Made by a program: the position numbers and the translations under genes. Shown in pieces: positions 28,323 through 53,114 of a stretch of DNA of 64,000 nucleotides. Origin of the DNA: Xiphias gladius. Its lineage: Eukaryota > Chordata > Actinopteri > Istiophoriformes > Xiphiidae. Position 1 is the first letter of the stretch. Each line of letters opens with the position of its first letter. The DNA lies in assembly GCF_016859285.1 (NCBI RefSeq), contig NC_053422.1:14997001-15061000 (forward strand), given 5' to 3'. The notes under the pieces are model-generated. The model searched no databases, had not been told where the DNA came from, and saw nothing but the letters and a program-made list of their open reading frames with translations.

Positions 28323-29801
28323 ATGTCTCAAAGGAAGATGCTGCAATTCTCCACGGGAGCTCTGCTTCTTCTTCTACCCTGGTTTGGTGGCCTGGTCCTT
28401 GGAGAGGTCAGCAGTGACTTTTCACAGTGCCTCGATTTCTTTTATAACAAAACTCCACCGCAGGGCATCACCGACGTGGGATACCAACCGATATGCCAGC
28501 GCTACAGAAACCAGTACCGCTTTGCCAGCCTGTACCACCGTCAGCATCGTGAACCGCTGTACTCTGCGTACATACTCAGCCCTGCAGATGGCAAACGGCC
28601 CAATGTCTCTTGGATGTATGAACCACAGGTAAGTAGAACAATGCAATACAATGTTCAAGAGCAAGCTTTTCCTTTAAAGACTAACTGTATTCTATTGAGC
28701 GTTACTGTATCTGATATGATGTGTTTAGCTATGTTAGGATTACATGTTTGTGATTAGACAGATTTTTAGGAAAAACTAGTGTTGTGGCAGGGCTCTTCCT
28801 TGGTTAAGACAGAGCAGCGCTTCCTTCAGCTCAGGGAATTTAGAGATTTTTTACAAAGTATTGTTGTCAAAGTGTAGAGTTAAGTGTGTCTAAATAGGCT
28901 AAATAGATTTAGAAATTTAACATGAGAAGATTGTCGCTAGACGTTTCTGTTTCTAGACGTGTCATTGTGTACAGCGTGTTATTACTGTAAATAAGGTTTT
29001 TGCCATTTTCAAGCAGAGGAATAGGAACCCTATTCCAAACTAAATACAAAAATGCTGTCACACACGTTATCTTTTCCCTGGTGAGGTAATAAAGAAAGGA
29101 AAGTTGCACAGACTCACTCCCACAGGGCTATTCAGCAAAACACTATTTTTTAGCTTCTAAACAGTGACATTTCCTTCTCTCTCCGTGTTTTTCAGTTGGC
29201 ATTTTCCCGTGCCAGCCCAGAGATGAAACCTTTCCATACCCCCCTGGACCAGAATGTGATTGAGAGCCAGGCGATGCTTCGGGACTACAGGAACTCCAAC
29301 TTCACCAAAGGGCATCTCAATCCCAGCATGCACCAGAAGACAATAGAAGACCGTGAGGCCACCTTCACCCTGACTAATATTGTCCCTCAGCGGGCAGGCT
29401 CCAATTCTGGCCCCTGGAACCGTCTGGAGAATGAGATGTTGAGAAAATTCAATGCCTTCTGTGAAGGGCCGATGTATGTGATCACCGGGGCCATGTCTTA
29501 TGAATCTGGAGATCACTGGATTAATAACAGGGTGTCTATTCCTGAGTACATGTGGTCTGCCTACTGCTGCCCATCCTACAAACCTAACCTTCCTGAGTCT
29601 GCGCGGCCATTTTTCCCCACATATGCTGCAGTGGGAAGAAATGACCCCAACAGCGGAGAGGAGATTGTGCCAGTTGATGTCAAGGCGAGGGCCTCAGTGC
29701 GAGGCTATGATGTGAGGCGGATGACTTTGGAGACTCTGGAGGGCATCCTGAGACAAAGGCTGGCCATGCCCGTCAGTCTGTTTCGTGGGCAGTGTCAGTA
29801 A
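28323..29801 (+). CDS. Endonuclease domain-containing 1 (ENDOD1)-like secreted protein, intact copy
   Basis: Two exons, 28323-28628 (donor CAG|GTAAGT) and 29196-29801 (acceptor TTTCAG), phase 0, 303 aa. A signal peptide is clear: LQFSTGALLLLLPWFGGLVLG. Exon 2 carries the DNA/RNA non-specific nuclease fold of the ENDOD1 family: KGHLNPSMHQ, ATFTLTNIVPQ, then SNSGPWNRLENEM with the metal-site Asn and the downstream Glu. In relatives I recall, the catalytic stretch reads DRGH. Here it is FTKGH, so the His is kept but the Asp and Arg positions have changed, and activity may be altered. Conserved Cys residues (SQCLDFF, PICQRY, SAYCCPSY, RGQCQ) suit a secreted disulfide-bonded protein. It is the first of three tandem units. 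ENDOD1-like genes are multi-copy in fish, so a symbol is not assigned. Confidence 0.93.
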
Positions 29802-30095
29802 CAAAGGGGCAATGCTTTAGTTCCTTGTTAAAATTAAATTCAGTAGTCACCAAATACAGCACATCTCCTCAGTGTCTCGTCAGAATCAAGAAGTTAAGAA
29901 GATTCAATTCCCTCCCTTCCTGTCTCTTTAATTACTGAATGAGATGAGAGTTTGATTAACCAGGAGACGATGATTATTTCATCATGTTTGAAATGAATTT
30001 TTCAGATGATTAGGATTTTGTAAAAATTCAGATATATTTCTCTCTTGTCACTGTCATCTTGTAAAATGTTCAATAACTAACTCCATGATTATACT

Positions 30096-30101
30096 AATAA
30101 A
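30096..30101 (+). promoter_or_regulatory. Polyadenylation signal of the intact ENDOD1-like gene
   Basis: AATAAA about 295 bases after the stop codon at 29799-29801. A related 3' flank occurs downstream of the third copy. Confidence 0.5.
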
Positions 30102-30235
30102 ACAAAACTGGGGGGAAAAAACATGCTATTAGTTTAAACATGAATGTATACATGAGTGGTTATTCAACATCACAAATAAGTACTAACTCCAAATAAAATG
30201 GTTGCACATTTCACATTTTGGACTCATACACATTT

Positions 30236-31405
30236 TGTGCACATACTCTCTCAAGCAGAAGGCAAACGGCACAATGCCACCTGGATGCATGAACCACAAA
30301 AATACTGTTTGACATGCAACATCAGCCATGAACTTTTAGGATTAACTGTGGTGTGTTGAGTGTGACTTGTTTTTTTTAATTTTTATTAATTTTTACCTTG
30401 GTAACAACTACCCTTCCTAGCATGACCACATTGACCCAGTAGGGGGCCCTGAGACCCATCTATCTGCATTGTGTACAGTTTTTCTGTGCTGGACAACTTC
30501 CTGACCTGTGTGGTCATTTTGATTAAACACAAATGATTTTAGGAAAATGTAACATACAGTATAAGCACAAAACTGTACAAGATTAAGGTTCTGAAACTCG
30601 ATTTTGACAGAGGAACCCTTTTCTACATAGGGAGGGGCCTCACGCAGGACCCAGTGAAATCAACAAATGTTTAAACCTACACTGTATGTTGTAAATACAG
30701 TTACAATATCCCCATTGCATCCAGCACAATAACATGGGATCAAATTCAAACACAAGACATACATAGGATAAACTACAACAACTGACCATTAAGACAAACA
30801 AACAAAAAACAAAAAAAACAACAAAAAACTAAATCTTAAATAATTTGAATATCCAAGCTGCAAAGAAAGTTAAGGAACACTTTAACCTTGAAGAATAATT
30901 TCTTTATTTTCTAACTTAAAATATTTTTTAGAAAAAGATTGACAGTTGTGTTTCATTGCAGTGACTTTTCCATGTTGCTAGATATGTGTGGGTGATTACA
31001 GTAAATTACATTTTTGAATATGGTTAACATGATTGTTTCAAACCAATTATATTTTTAGATAAAGAAAATAGACTTAAACTGCCTTTAAATTCCAGCCACG
31101 CAACAGCAGCATGCATTTTATCAGTTCATTTTCTTACTGGACAGACGCGTTTGCATTATACTGTGAGATTATAGCGAAATAACGGCTGGCCGGATAGGGA
31201 CAAATGTAGAGCAGAGCACTTTGGTTGAGTTAGAGATACTACAGCTGAGCACCACTTTGAGGCTCACTGCATATAAATTCACTTTTGTTTTTCTAACAAG
31301 GTGTTAGTCTATAATGTGAAGCAGATGTCTTTCGAGACACTGGAAACTATTGTGTCACTGAGGCTGGCCTTAAAAATAAGTCTGTTTCATGAGCAGTGTC
31401 AGTAA
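30236..31405 (+). pseudogene. Fossil ENDOD1-like copy (ends of both exons only)
   Basis: Bases 30236-30300 match the end of exon 1 of the intact copy (GGCAAACGGC, then the equivalent of WMYEPQ read as WMHEPQ), but the donor is gone (CCACAAAAA in place of CCACAGGTAAG). Bases about 31296-31405 match the last 35 or so codons of exon 2, reading ...QMSFETLETIVSLRL... to LFHEQCQ and a stop. The middle of the gene, including the catalytic motif, was not found. It is a dead middle unit of the tandem array. Confidence 0.8.
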
Positions 31406-31426: not shown

Positions 31427-32336
31427 ATCGATCCATCCATTTTCTACCACTAATCCAGAGTTGGGTTGCAGTGGCAGCAGGTTAAGCAAGGTAGTCCAGA
31501 CGTCCCTCTCCCCAGCAACAAAAAACAAAACAAAAAAAACCATGACTATCACTCTGGTTTCATAAGGAATAGATGGCTTGTTGTAACAGCCCCTGTAACC
31601 CATACTCCCTCAGTACCCCCCTAAAGACCCCCTGAGGAACACGGTTGTAAGCCTTCTCCAAGTCCACAAAACACATGTAGACTGGATGAGCAAACTCCCA
31701 CGACCTTGCCTTGCAAGGGTAAAGAGTTGGTCCATTGTTCCACAGCCAAGCCAAGTTCTGCATTGCTCCTCCTGGATCCGGCGTCTGACAATCGCTCGGA
31801 GCCTCCTTTCCAGCACCCTGGCATAAGTGTTCCCAGGTAAGACGAGCAGTGTAATACGCCGATAACTGTAGCACACCCTGCGGTCCCCCTTTTAGATATG
31901 GGAACCCCCACCCTGGTCTGCCAGTCCACAGGCACTTTCCCCAACTTCCGTGCAACATTGCAGCGTTGTGCCAGCCGAGAAAGCCCAACAACGTCCAGAG
32001 CCTTTAGCATCTCAAGCTGAATCTCATCAACACCTGGCGTCTTGCCACTGAGGAACTTCCTGACTACCTTCGAGACCTCTGCTAGAGATATGAGTGAGGC
32101 TTTCCCAGAGTCTTCAAACTCTGTCTCCTCCTCAGGGTACACGTTGGCCGGGTTCAGGAGTTCTTCAAAGAGTTCATTTGAGCTGTTGTTTGATGCATAA
32201 GCACAAACAACAGTCAGAGCCTTCCCCCCAGCAACTTGCATTTGCACTTAGGCGACCATCTCCTTCTCCGGGGAGAACTCCAACACAGCGGCGCTCAGCC
32301 TGGGTCCCGATAGCTTCATGATCGTTCATGACCAAG
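31427..32336 (-). mobile_element. Truncated, frameshifted non-LTR retrotransposon (LINE) with reverse transcriptase remains
   Basis: On the minus strand, fragments of a reverse transcriptase are spread over at least two frames. They include SLAEVSKVVRKFLSGKTPGVDEI, GLSRLAQRCNVARKLGKVP and then MCFVDLEKAYNRVPQGVF with REYGLQGLLQQAI. The FVDLEKAY phrase is the A-motif aspartate region of a LINE RT common in fish. The catalytic block downstream is absent. The 3' end carries CATCCATTTTCTACCAC and AAGGTAGTCCAGACGTCCC, seen in many fish LINE copies. It begins about 22 bases beyond the ENDOD1-like fossil's stop codon. Dead copy. Confidence 0.8.
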
Positions 32337-33218: not shown

Positions 33219-33524
33219 ATGTCTCAAAGGAAAACTCTGCAATTCTCTGTAGGAGCTCTGCTTCTTCTCCTTCCCTGGTTTGGTGGCCTGGTCCTTGGAG
33301 AGGTCAGCAGTGTCTTTTCACAGTGCCTCCATTTCTTTTTTAAGAGAACTCCACCGCACGGCATCACCGACGTGGGATATCAGCCAATATGCCAGCGCTA
33401 CCAAAACCAGTACCGCTTTGCCACCCTGTACCATTGTTCGTATCGTTCAGCACTGTACTCTGCCTACACAGTCGGTTCTGTACAAGGCAAACGGCCCGAA
33501 GGAAATTTGATGTATGAACCACAG
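33219..33524 (+). pseudogene. Third ENDOD1-like copy: intact exon 1, catalytic exon lost
   Basis: Exon 1 is 306 nt, exactly as in the intact copy, open throughout, with the signal peptide and a usable donor (CAG|GTAGGA). I count 25 differences in 102 residues, clustered after residue 72. No exon 2 was found downstream. Instead, 3' UTR-like sequence resumes at about 34755 (AGTAGTCACCAAGTACAGCAC), matching that after the intact gene at 29838. If the intron is read through, the frame continues 21 codons to a stop at 33588-33590 and gives a small secreted protein with no nuclease motif. It is either a pseudogene or a truncated product. Confidence 0.8.
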
Positions 33525-33932
33525 GTAGGATGTGGGCAGAGTTGCCAAAAATTTCTCTCAGTTAAAAGTATTGTCATTATACAGTTCTAAGTAGCCTTTT
33601 CAATTAGAAGTCAAAGTCACAAAAAAGCCACTAGAGTGCTATGTGAAAAACAGAAAAAAAACAACAACACACCTCTGTCTTGTTTACTCTACTTTTAATC
33701 ATATCTGACTATATGATCAAAATTTGTCATCATAACTAATTTACAGTCAATTTTATATGGAACGTCACATTATAATTTCTGGATTAAATATTTCAATTAT
33801 AATTATAGTTATCTCGTGTGTGATCACAAAACATTATACTTTATTGAGTACACCAATGAGGGCTTGTAATCTAATATAATGTTGCTCTGGAAAATAAATC
33901 AGCAAATCAGATATGTATAAACCATGTAACTA

Positions 33933-33934
<2 letters not shown>

Positions 33935-34027
<93 letters not shown>

Positions 34028-34030
34028 TTA
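33935..34030. repeat. (TA)n tract followed by poly-T
   Basis: About 37 TA units with a few TACATA interruptions, then about 20 T. It lies between exon 1 of the third ENDOD1-like copy and the palindrome. Confidence 0.97.
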
Positions 34031-34525
34031 AAGTGAATAAAAAGAGTTTTAATATGTTACAGTGTACTAATACCCTGAGATAATCCCAGAAACAATTGTG
34101 TACCCCCAAACAAATCAACTCTTAAATGTGATCTGGATTCAAGTAAACACTTCTTTGTGTAGACAGATGACTGATATCTATGGGCACACAGAGGTGTCCA
34201 AATCAGTCTATAATCTTATTGAAAATAGGCTTACATTTAAATAACACAGTTCCCTCTGCAAGATGGAGTCCAACTACTGAGACCCATTTATTCAGCGGAA
34301 TAAAGAAAATAAGTGACCTGTCATCTCGCAACAGTGAGTTTAACACCTTTGTAGCCCATATAATCATAACATAATCTTAAAAATACTGTATATATTATGG
34401 ACAATAGCAGAAAATGTAAATGTGTCTTATGCAAATAAGTTAGGACAAGAGAACACAAGGCATTTAAAAAAGGCTAATATCAAATGACCGATTCAGCCTA
34501 ATTAGGATACAATTAGATAATGTTT

Positions 34526-34623
34526 CATTAAAAATCATCAATTAAATACAAAATTTACATAAAAGTACATACATATGTATGTACTTTTATGTAAATTTTG
34601 TATTTAATTGATGATTTTTAATG
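34526..34623. repeat. Perfect 98-bp palindrome with no spacer
   Basis: The arm 34526-34574 is the exact reverse complement of 34575-34623 (49 bases each, no mismatch), centred on CATATG. The flanks are unrelated (TGTTT on the left, GAGGAGG on the right). It lies inside the interval where the third ENDOD1-like copy should carry exon 2. Confidence 0.97.
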
Positions 34624-34744
34624 GAGGAGGAGTTGGAGTCTATCATTTGGACAAAACTGGAGATAAAAATCAGTCTGTTTTGATGGGCATTACCAGAAGT
34701 CAGTTGTTAACTTACCTGCACACAGATCATTTATCTTAGCCAGG

Positions 34745-35220
34745 GCTCTAATGGCTGTCCAGTAGTCACCAAGTACAGCACACCCCCACCCTAGTGTCTT
34801 GTCAAACTCCCCCACTGCTGAATTTCTGGATAAACGTTGAAATAAAATATTGTCGAGTCTCATGATGACTGGAGTTTGATGTGTCTGATGAGTATGAACT
34901 TGAAATTCTGATCAATGTCATCTTGTAACATGTTCACTAACCCCATGTTTCTCCTATAAATCAAGACTGAAATGTGTGAGGAGCCTTCTGGTGAATTGAA
35001 ATATTTATTTCTTAATGATATGATCGAAACACAAACATACAAAACACCAAGTGGTCAGTTATATTGTCAGAGAAACACAAGGACTTAGCACAGATGTAAC
35101 ATGAGTGAATTAGTGATAAAAAGATAAAAAATTTATTCATTCAATTAATTCATCATCATAAATAAGTACAAGCTTTTTACATACAAATGAGAACACCTCC
35201 AATTAAAATGGCTGGACATC
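34745..35220 (+). repeat. 3' UTR and flank of the duplicated ENDOD1-like unit
   Basis: AGTAGTCACC..GTACAGCACA, GTGTCTTGTCA, TGTCATCTTGTAA.ATGTTCA and a later CTCCAATTAAAATGG.TG match, in order, segments after the intact gene (29838-30210). This shows that the duplication covered the whole gene, so exon 2 was lost later from the third copy. Confidence 0.7.
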
Positions 35221-35518
35221 TGAGATTAGTTTTATTTCTCCTCCTACAGAGACACACCGAACACAATTGTCTTCCTCTCAACTTTAACCATTTGCCTTCT
35301 TTATTTACTCAACAAAAATCATCCACACACGTATCTGCTTCTTTACCTTCAAGTCAATTTAACATCTCATCCTCTCCGAGTAAGAAAGGCATTTCCAAAT
35401 CACTGAGAATAAAATTAGCATGTAGCAGTCACATTCATCACCAAAATTCTACCACATTCAATAAAAAAAAACAGCTCTCTCTTCTTTCCAGTTCTGTCAG
35501 AGATTTGAAGGAGAGGCT

Positions 35519-46081: not shown

Positions 46082-46225
46082 TTTCCTTCGTGTGTGTGTA
46101 TGTGTGTGTGTGTGTGTGTGTGTCGTCCTGGCAAAATGTGTTCCTGGAGACACCTACTGTAGTGGGACCTACCACGGTTTGGGCGGTTTTGAGTAAATTG
46201 GCAGTACCATGACCTGGATGACTGA
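46082..46225 (+). repeat. Microsatellite-bearing repeat, copy A
   Basis: A (GT)n tract is followed by TCCTGGAGACACCTACTGTAG and TGGGACCTACCACGG.. TTTTGAGTAA. It is related to copies B and C nearby and is the most diverged of the three. Confidence 0.75.
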
Positions 46226-46502
46226 GAGTCTTCAGACATTTTAACGTCATATCTAAATGCTAATAACGTGATGGTTTTCCATAATGACATTGCTTATGTC
46301 CAAACTGTCTTAGTTATAAGTTATGTGTTGTGACTGAAGAATTGCCCACTTTGTGTGTCTGCTGGTTTCTCCTTTAGTTAAAACATTATATCGTCTACTG
46401 TCATATACTTGAAACAAGAGCCCATCTTGCAATGGGATCACACCAGCCACGATGCCTGTCAGCATCCTGACATTCAGACTCAATAACCACTAACCACTAC
46501 AG

Positions 46503-46529
46503 CTTGGCTGGTATTGTTTTCACCTTGAG

Positions 46530-46607
<78 letters not shown>

Positions 46608-46700
46608 ATAATGGAAATTGTGGTCCTGGAGACACCCAATGTAGTGGGAACTACCACAGAGGTGATTTTGAGTAATTTCACGGGTGTTTATATGTCTGTC
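46503..46700 (+). repeat. Microsatellite-bearing repeat, copy B, with (CT)n(GT)n
   Basis: TGGCTGGTATTGTTTTCACC and TTGAGTCT lead into (CT)n(GT)n at 46531-46606, then ATAATGGAAATTGTGG, TCCTGGAGACACCCAATG and AACTACCACAGAGGTG. Confidence 0.85.
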
Positions 46701-47384
46701 TATCTGTCTGTCTCTGTCTTTCTGTCTGTGGGCCCGGGTCGCTGAAGTGGGCCCAGTCCGACTATGAAGGGTTTTATTTAACCTGGGTGGTGCACACGCA
46801 TAGTACGCTGCCATTCGTAGTGAATATCAGTAGGTAATAAAAATCTATGTAACTTAATATTAGCTAGTTGAATCCACCTCTCTCTCTCTTCTTTCTTTTT
46901 CTCTTATTTCTCTGTCTTACTCTTGCCTCAGCCGGGTGTCGCCACATGCCTCCACTTCCTGTATCCATCACTTCAAATTAAAAGCCCTCTGCAGAGTCAT
47001 GTAATTGTGACTTCATGATTGTGACAGGGCCAACACTGCAAATGTATATAGCAGAAACACTGGTCAACGCCATAGCGTCACAACCGTGTAAGATACAGTC
47101 ACAAAACTTTACAGGTGGGTAGTTGAGAGCAAAATGAAGGCCGAGTTGGAAGATGGATGGGGTCTGACACATGAGTACCGGGTACTCGTGGTAGTGATAC
47201 TGAATACTCAAGGGTCGGAAGGGCAACATGTTGACAGGCGTCGCGGCAGGTGTGATCCAATCGCAAGATGGTCTCTAGTTACATGAGTACTCAGTACTCA
47301 AGGGTGGGACCACACCCATCTTTGAACACTATCCCTGTGACAAAATCTGTCCAAAGACAGACATATAAACACATGCCAAAGTAC

Positions 47385-47512
47385 TGAAGAACACCTCTGT
47401 GGTAGTTCCCACTACATTAGGTGTCTCCAGGACCACAATTTCCATTATGACACACACACACACACACACACACACAGACTCTCAAGGTGTAAACAATACC
47501 AGCCCTGCTGTC
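47385..47512 (-). repeat. Microsatellite-bearing repeat, copy C, inverted
   Basis: The reverse complement reads GCTGGTATTGTTTACACC, TTGAGAGTCT, (GT)n, then ATAATGGAAATTGTGG, TCCTGGAGACACCTAATG and AACTACCACAGAGGTG. It is nearly identical to copy B on both sides of the microsatellite. Confidence 0.85.
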
Positions 47513-51724: not shown

Positions 51725-52037
51725 AAATGCTAGTAGCCAATAGTACATAATAGTACATATTAATATGTACTAGTATGAATAACCACCTCAGTAGAAGCTG
51801 TATAAAAAATTGTACCTCTTAAAAAAAACTGTCACCTTGCAGTATACAGTGTATCGTCAAATTGCTCAGCCCTGTTTTTTTTTATTTACTGAGAGCAAAT
51901 GTTCAGTTATCTGAGGATCCCGTTTGCCCATTCACCTGAATGGGGAAGTGGTCTCAGACTTTTTGTGCACTGTTTTTCTTAATCACGGGTTACACCGTCT
52001 GGTATCAAGTTTACAAGTTTTAGCCTAATGCGAGAAA
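51725..52037 (+). repeat. 313-bp direct repeat, copy 1
   Basis: Starts AAATGCTAGTAGCCAATAG, right after the stop and poly-A signals of the second zinc-finger gene. It matches 52801-53114 almost base for base. Confidence 0.95.
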
Positions 52038-52800: not shown

Positions 52801-53114
52801 AAATGCTAGTAGCCAATAGTACATAATAGTACATATTAATATGTACTAGTATGAATTACCACCTCAGTAGAAGCTGTATAAAAAAATTGTACCTCTTAAA
52901 AAAAACTGTCACCTTGCAGTATACAGTGTATCGTCAAATTGCTCAGCCCTGTTTTTTTTTATTTACTGAGAGCAAATGTTCAGTTATCTGAGGATCCCGT
53001 TTGCCCATTCACCTGAATGGGGAAGTGGTCCCTGACTTTTTGTGCACTGTTTTTCTTAATCACGGGTTACACCGTCTGGTATCAAGTTTACAAGTTTTAG
53101 CCTAATGTGAGAAA
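52801..53114 (+). repeat. 313-bp direct repeat, copy 2
   Basis: Nearly identical to 51725-52037, offset by 1,076 bases, with a handful of substitutions and one-base indels. It contains the small palindrome-like GTACATATTAATATGTAC. No coding potential. Confidence 0.95.

Follow-up and report, generated by a model that had tools for sequence, protein, structure and literature searches.

A perfect 98-bp palindrome beside a lost exon in Xiphias gladius: probably a young fold-back copy of sequence already present

How does a long perfect palindrome come to stand where an exon has been lost, and did the one bring about the other? The question is raised by a 64,000-nt stretch of the Xiphias gladius genome (assembly GCF_016859285.1, contig NC_053422.1, positions 14,997,001 to 15,061,000 of the forward strand; hereafter the window), in which positions 34526-34623 form a palindrome within the third of three tandem ENDOD1-like gene copies. 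A first-pass annotation, made from the letters alone, had described this palindrome as spacerless, set between unrelated flanks and either very young or maintained, and had proposed that palindrome-driven breakage removed the catalytic exon of the third copy or that the palindrome formed during repair. Here we report that the left arm carries on a decayed dispersed repeat. From this we conclude, with a probability of roughly 0.7, that the palindrome is a young duplication of 49 existing bases, made in one step by fold-back (template switch).

Results

A perfect palindrome without spacer

The geometry was as first described. The two 49-bp arms are complementary at 49 of 49 positions, the spacer is 0 nt, and the bases just outside, TTT on the left and GAG on the right, do not pair. 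The AT content is 83.7%. Arms of this kind are expected about 2e-23 times per 64 kb at the local composition and about 2e-17 times at the palindrome's own composition, so chance is excluded as its origin. Under a filter demanding arms of at least 12, a spacer of at most 12 and at least 6 distinct trimers, the palindrome is the sole perfect inverted repeat in the window; in a non-random sample of 48 further loci, fetched for other purposes, partly overlapping and amounting to 151,154 bases of this genome, the longest arm is 15. A perfect palindrome of 98 bp is thus rare yet has precedent, since the human reference, with four mismatches allowed, holds 783 palindromes of 100-200 bp and a mean of 84 of 80-100 bp per chromosome (PMC7680136), and the longest perfect inverted repeat found in human has 140-bp arms (PMC13155455).

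The (TA)n and poly-T tracts noted in the first-pass annotation are present at 33.93-34.03 kb, some 500 bp to the left of the palindrome. A short direct repeat, TAATG, occurs in the left flank (34518-34522) and at the right end of the palindrome (34619-34623), the left border reading TAATG-TTT-CATTA. Its chance rate is 0.6-1.7%, and no mechanism requiring this direct repeat was found.

The left arm continues a dispersed repeat

A search with the block to the left of the palindrome brought up locus L020 (contig C10) through positions 33888-33927. L020 also matches 34200-34226 and, ungapped over 55 bases, 34495-34549, that is, across the left border. This match is weak by itself (E 0.023 per piece), and 7 of 300 comparison windows, taken from loci that include some chosen for likeness to the arm, score equally high. 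However, the L020 stretch belongs to a repeat family with at least 23 genome matches (loci L037-L059, where L037 is L020's own place and L047 and L059 are the same place). A profile built from these 23 matches identified two segments of the same repeat in the window, about 240 bp apart, the second of which crosses the left border (Table 1); a third match was at chance level only (E 8.1). When the L020 copy was omitted from the profile, the E values were 3.7e-8 for 34467-34550 and 8.1e-4 for 34174-34226.

Continuity at the border was measured by extending the left flank. Adding the first 25 arm bases raised the profile score from 16.0 to 30.2 bits, a value reached by none of 1,000 shuffles (maximum 21.9) and none of 1,000 genomic 25-mers of similar composition (maximum 25.7), whereas appending the right-flank bases in place of the arm gave 19.6 bits. 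The right flank has no further repeat homology; exon-2 homology begins there. The arm is therefore collinear with pre-existing sequence over 25 of its 49 bases (0 of 2,000 controls), and the other arm is its exact reverse complement, after which collinearity breaks and the exon remnant follows. The flanks are indeed unrelated, the left being decayed repeat and the right exon remnant. Because homology to the repeat family runs on through the left border, sequence comparison indicates that the left arm is the original and the right arm its inverted copy. It is the family profile and the border test, not the first L020 match, that carry this assignment. None of the 23 repeat loci, which are a subset of the 48 loci above, carries a long palindrome (longest arm 15).

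Two other assignments of the sequence around the palindrome were tried and rejected. The right inner arm does not behave as a continuation of the repeat, its score being matched by 113 of 400 shuffles and by 118 of 400 pieces taken from the genome. The left flank was also considered as exon 2, in which case the palindrome would interrupt the exon as a clean insertion. In anchored tests the summed score was equalled or exceeded by 59 of 4,000 windows and by 31 of 1,264 AT-rich windows, and in a further anchored test by 357 of 801 windows; at one fixed register the count was 39 of 1,326, rising to 353 of 1,326 with a few bases' freedom. This candidate was dropped, the left flank fitting the repeat. 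As a separate observation, locus L016 (contig C2, 1035-2660) carries a 584-bp unit in three tandem copies that are 97-100% alike, and has 87 bp in common with 34177-34263 at about 74%.

Table 1. Coordinates of the palindrome arms, repeat segments and ENDOD1-like remains in the window
Feature	Position	Strand	Evidence
Left arm, read as the original sequence	34526..34574	+	Outer 25 bases (34526-34550) carry on the dispersed repeat of the left flank
Right arm, read as the new part	34575..34623	-	Exact inverted copy of left arm; 49/49 complementary
Repeat segment 1, same repeat as segment 2 (model positions 13-65)	34174..34226	+	nhmmer E 1.2e-4 in window
Repeat segment 2, decayed (model positions 61-144), across left border	34467..34550	+	nhmmer E 6.1e-9 in window
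Copy 1, ENDOD1-like; endonuclease exon 2 open, from about 29196 (splice site by eye)	28323..29801	+	Pfam Endonuclease_NS E 4e-20
Copy 2, decayed; retains only the exon 1 end and about 31 final codons of exon 2	30241..31404	+	Sequence comparison
Copy 3 exon 1, frame open, identity to copy 1 about 85.5% (end by eye at splice site)	33219..33524	+	Synonymous divergence (dS) 0.229, non-synonymous (dN) 0.151, ratio 0.66
Copy 3 exon 2 end, decayed remnant, begins at palindrome edge (right limit approximate)	34624..34700	+	Shuffle tests; 33/57 and 34/57 identical
Patchy 3' homology to copy 1 (29839-30217)	34758..35227	+	Sequence comparison

The palindrome is probably much younger than the repeat that it copies

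Alignment of the repeat copy in the third ENDOD1-like copy with the family consensus shows 33 differences over 137 sites (24%). Within the 25 outer arm bases there are 7 such differences, all common to both arms, and the arms differ from each other at 0 of 49 positions. It follows that the inverted copying came later than the divergence of the repeat. For arms that evolve independently, the palindrome would have, as a 95% upper bound, an age of about one tenth of what separates the repeat copy from its consensus. At assumed, unmeasured rates of 2e-9 to 1e-8 per site per year, the 95% bound is about 15 to 3 million years. The first-pass reading of the palindrome as very young or maintained is thus supported, with the former favored.

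The palindrome lies beside the remains of an exon that probably died earlier

The three tandem copies at 28.3-35.2 kb take the name ENDOD1-like from the first-pass annotation and their nuclease domain assignment from Pfam. In copy 3 only about the last 20-30 codons of exon 2 are kept, and detectable homology starts at the right edge of the palindrome. The remnant is genuine by shuffle test: 34624-34720 outscored all 200 shuffles in the comparison with exon 2 of copy 1, and again all 200 in that with exon 2 of copy 2. It is identical to copy 1 at 33 of 57 bases and to copy 2 at 34 of 57, is broken in frame by one or more alignment gaps towards its end, and is far more decayed than exon 1 of the same copy. 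About 1.1 kb following that exon has no detectable homology to the copy 1 intron or exon 2, and neither the two arms, the 500 bases to their left nor 33528-34525 gave a match to exon 2 or the intron above shuffles. In simulations, an exon 2 carrying small indels was seen in 100 of 100 trials at 40% changes and in 87 of 100 at 45%. Given the lack of homology left of the palindrome edge and this high power of detection, the catalytic part of copy 3 exon 2 is missing, within the limits of detection, and the palindrome does lie at the site of a lost exon.

That the palindrome caused this loss is not supported. The remnant is only 33/57 identical and has a frame-breaking gap, and the palindrome is young; exon 2 of copy 3 was therefore probably dead long before the palindrome formed, since the latter, given independent evolution of its arms, would have no more than about one tenth of the age of the repeat copy.

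Several features of the neighboring copies are recorded here. Exon-2 homology in copy 2 begins within about 10-25 bases of the point where it begins in copy 3, and left of these starts the two copies have no detectable shared sequence; the near-equal starts may reflect coincidence or an old shared truncation. Copy 3 still has an open exon 1, with 85.5% identity to copy 1, although its intron is unrecognizable, which may be due to gene conversion from copy 1 or to remaining constraint; Pfam returned 0 families for this exon. Between copies 2 and 3, at 31560-32247, minus-strand frames resemble by eye, in a motif, a reverse transcriptase fragment of a long interspersed nuclear element (LINE); Pfam returned 0 families for these frames. 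A genome search with exon 2 gave 9 matches, copy 1 included. The closest of the others, on contig C9 (L028), is 57% identical over a 218-amino-acid open frame and is a single exon across the relevant point. An ENDOD1 pattern matched three stretches in viral contigs, none of which encodes a relative.

No second copy of the palindrome in the genome

The first-pass annotation had named a dispersed transposon as one of the findings that would overturn its account. In the 691 Mb of genome searched, a 218-base query found only the palindrome itself, on both strands. This type of search skips very common words and scores the best candidates only; the pattern searches are independent of that restriction. 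Patterns for the outer (34528-34552) and inner (34549-34572) halves of the arm, with at most 3 mismatches, gave 6 matches each: 2 were the palindrome itself and 4 had 2-3 mismatches, compared with 4 and 9 matches for control patterns. There was no exact match elsewhere in the genome, and the near matches, not exceeding the controls, provide no donor for the arm. The left block and the right flank have one full-length genome match each, both within a single 30-Mb contig, and the genome yielded no alternative version of this site. Two patterns gave 0 matches in viral contigs, and four arm strings returned 0 papers in a literature search. A 22-base match in a bacterial contig was taken as chance, the surrounding sequence being without palindrome.

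Other repeats in the window

Two direct repeats of 314 bp at 51725-52037 and 52801-53114, about 1.1 kb apart and 98.4% identical, each contain a 32-bp imperfect palindrome; they are possibly a recent long terminal repeat pair or a tandem copy. The stretch 46090-47479 holds several repeats of 70-125 bp, some direct and others inverted, with 80-90% identity.

Discussion

Altogether, these data suggest the following course of events. A decayed copy of the dispersed repeat would have sat inside the dead third ENDOD1-like copy. During a recent replication or repair event, the growing strand would have reached an AT-rich point after synthesis across the 49 bases of the left arm, reversed direction there and copied those same bases backwards, after which synthesis would have continued into the exon-2 remnant. 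The outcome would be a spacerless perfect palindrome with an original left arm and a new right arm, probably without function. Template switching is reported to make perfect hairpins in one step (PMC8794818) and to be enriched near poly(dA:dT) and AT-rich sequence (PMC7954356). The suggestion that the palindrome formed during repair fits this account, a fold-back in repair or replication being the best explanation, although the event itself, its mechanism and its singleness are deduced from the sequence.

Several points weigh against this interpretation. No match to the repeat family is seen for the 24 inner bases of the left arm, so that the repeat copy must have been shortened or altered there before or during the event, and the original status of these bases is presumed. 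The profile match carries a composition bias of 17.8 bits, already subtracted from its score. The spacer is zero, whereas the fold-back junctions described in PMC3907307 retain one; a zero spacer would have to come from a palindromic loop or from a switch between strands. Finally, the switch is read from one genome. One could also envisage that a single recent event deleted the rest of the repeat together with what remained of the catalytic exon, the gap being closed by a fold-back copy with zero spacer and the palindrome being the scar of a deletion. We regard this version as possible but less likely than not.

Other origins were weighed against a young fold-back duplication. One alternative is an older palindrome, its perfection preserved through recurrent template switches or through arm-to-arm conversion: switching can mend existing stems (PMC8794818), and the age bound holds only for arms that evolve independently. 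Such upkeep, however, demands continual correction of a sequence without sign of function, and a single young event would be simpler; we consider it unlikely. Comparably unlikely is an artefact of assembly or library, in which the second arm would stem from an inverted chimera. The right arm does copy its neighbor exactly and the assembly alone was examined, but the left block and right flank each have their one full-length match on the same contig, with no alternative version of the site.

Much less credible still is a recently inserted short palindromic miniature inverted-repeat transposable element (MITE), a non-autonomous DNA transposon. Elements of this type are described in PMC8501715, target sites could be hidden in the TA or TTAA within the arm ends, and the direct repeat TAATG might be read in the same way, the bases adjoining the palindrome being TTT and GAG. 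Yet the genome gives self matches only, with near matches at control level and no dispersed copies, and the left arm continues a repeat that an insertion would interrupt. The genome searches and the continuous left border together largely exclude a palindromic transposon in this genome. Equally remote is a selected hairpin RNA, such as a new microRNA-like gene. The predicted fold of the 178-base region is strong (-78 kcal/mol, z -14.5), and 7 of 9 weak Rfam matches fall on the palindrome, but all 9 lie far below their gathering scores (best 39.8 against 81), none thus reaching a known family at its curated score, and a long AT-rich stem would be expected to yield such matches anyway.

The locus can be compared with known systems. 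Like the short-range inverted repeats of the four-point template-switch model (PMC7954356, PMC8794818), it is an exact reverse-complement copy of adjacent AT-rich sequence for which one event suffices; unlike them, it combines a zero spacer with a 49-base arm, and the new arm is followed by an exon remnant rather than by the rest of the repeat. Fold-back inverted duplications (PMC3907307) likewise place the original beside an inverted copy, followed by a junction to other sequence, but involve large chromosome segments, whereas here tens of bases are duplicated without spacer. The palindrome shares with MITEs such as MADE1 a short, almost or fully perfect symmetry; it differs from them in being undispersed in the genome searched and in having a left arm continuous with its flank. 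Palindromic AT-rich repeats (PATRRs) are also AT-rich and, in principle, able to form cruciforms; they measure several hundred bp with more than 90% AT (PMC7999016), in contrast to the 98 bp and about 84% AT found here, and the present palindrome has no known link to translocation.

In conclusion, the mutation is of a known kind; the added merit of this locus is that the original arm of a perfect palindrome is identifiable from a single genome, because the dispersed repeat acts as an outgroup. The same approach could serve to orient and date other long perfect palindromes and to measure how frequently they arise by one-step fold-back. As regards the gene family, these results indicate that exon loss next to a conspicuous palindrome is not necessarily the work of that palindrome.
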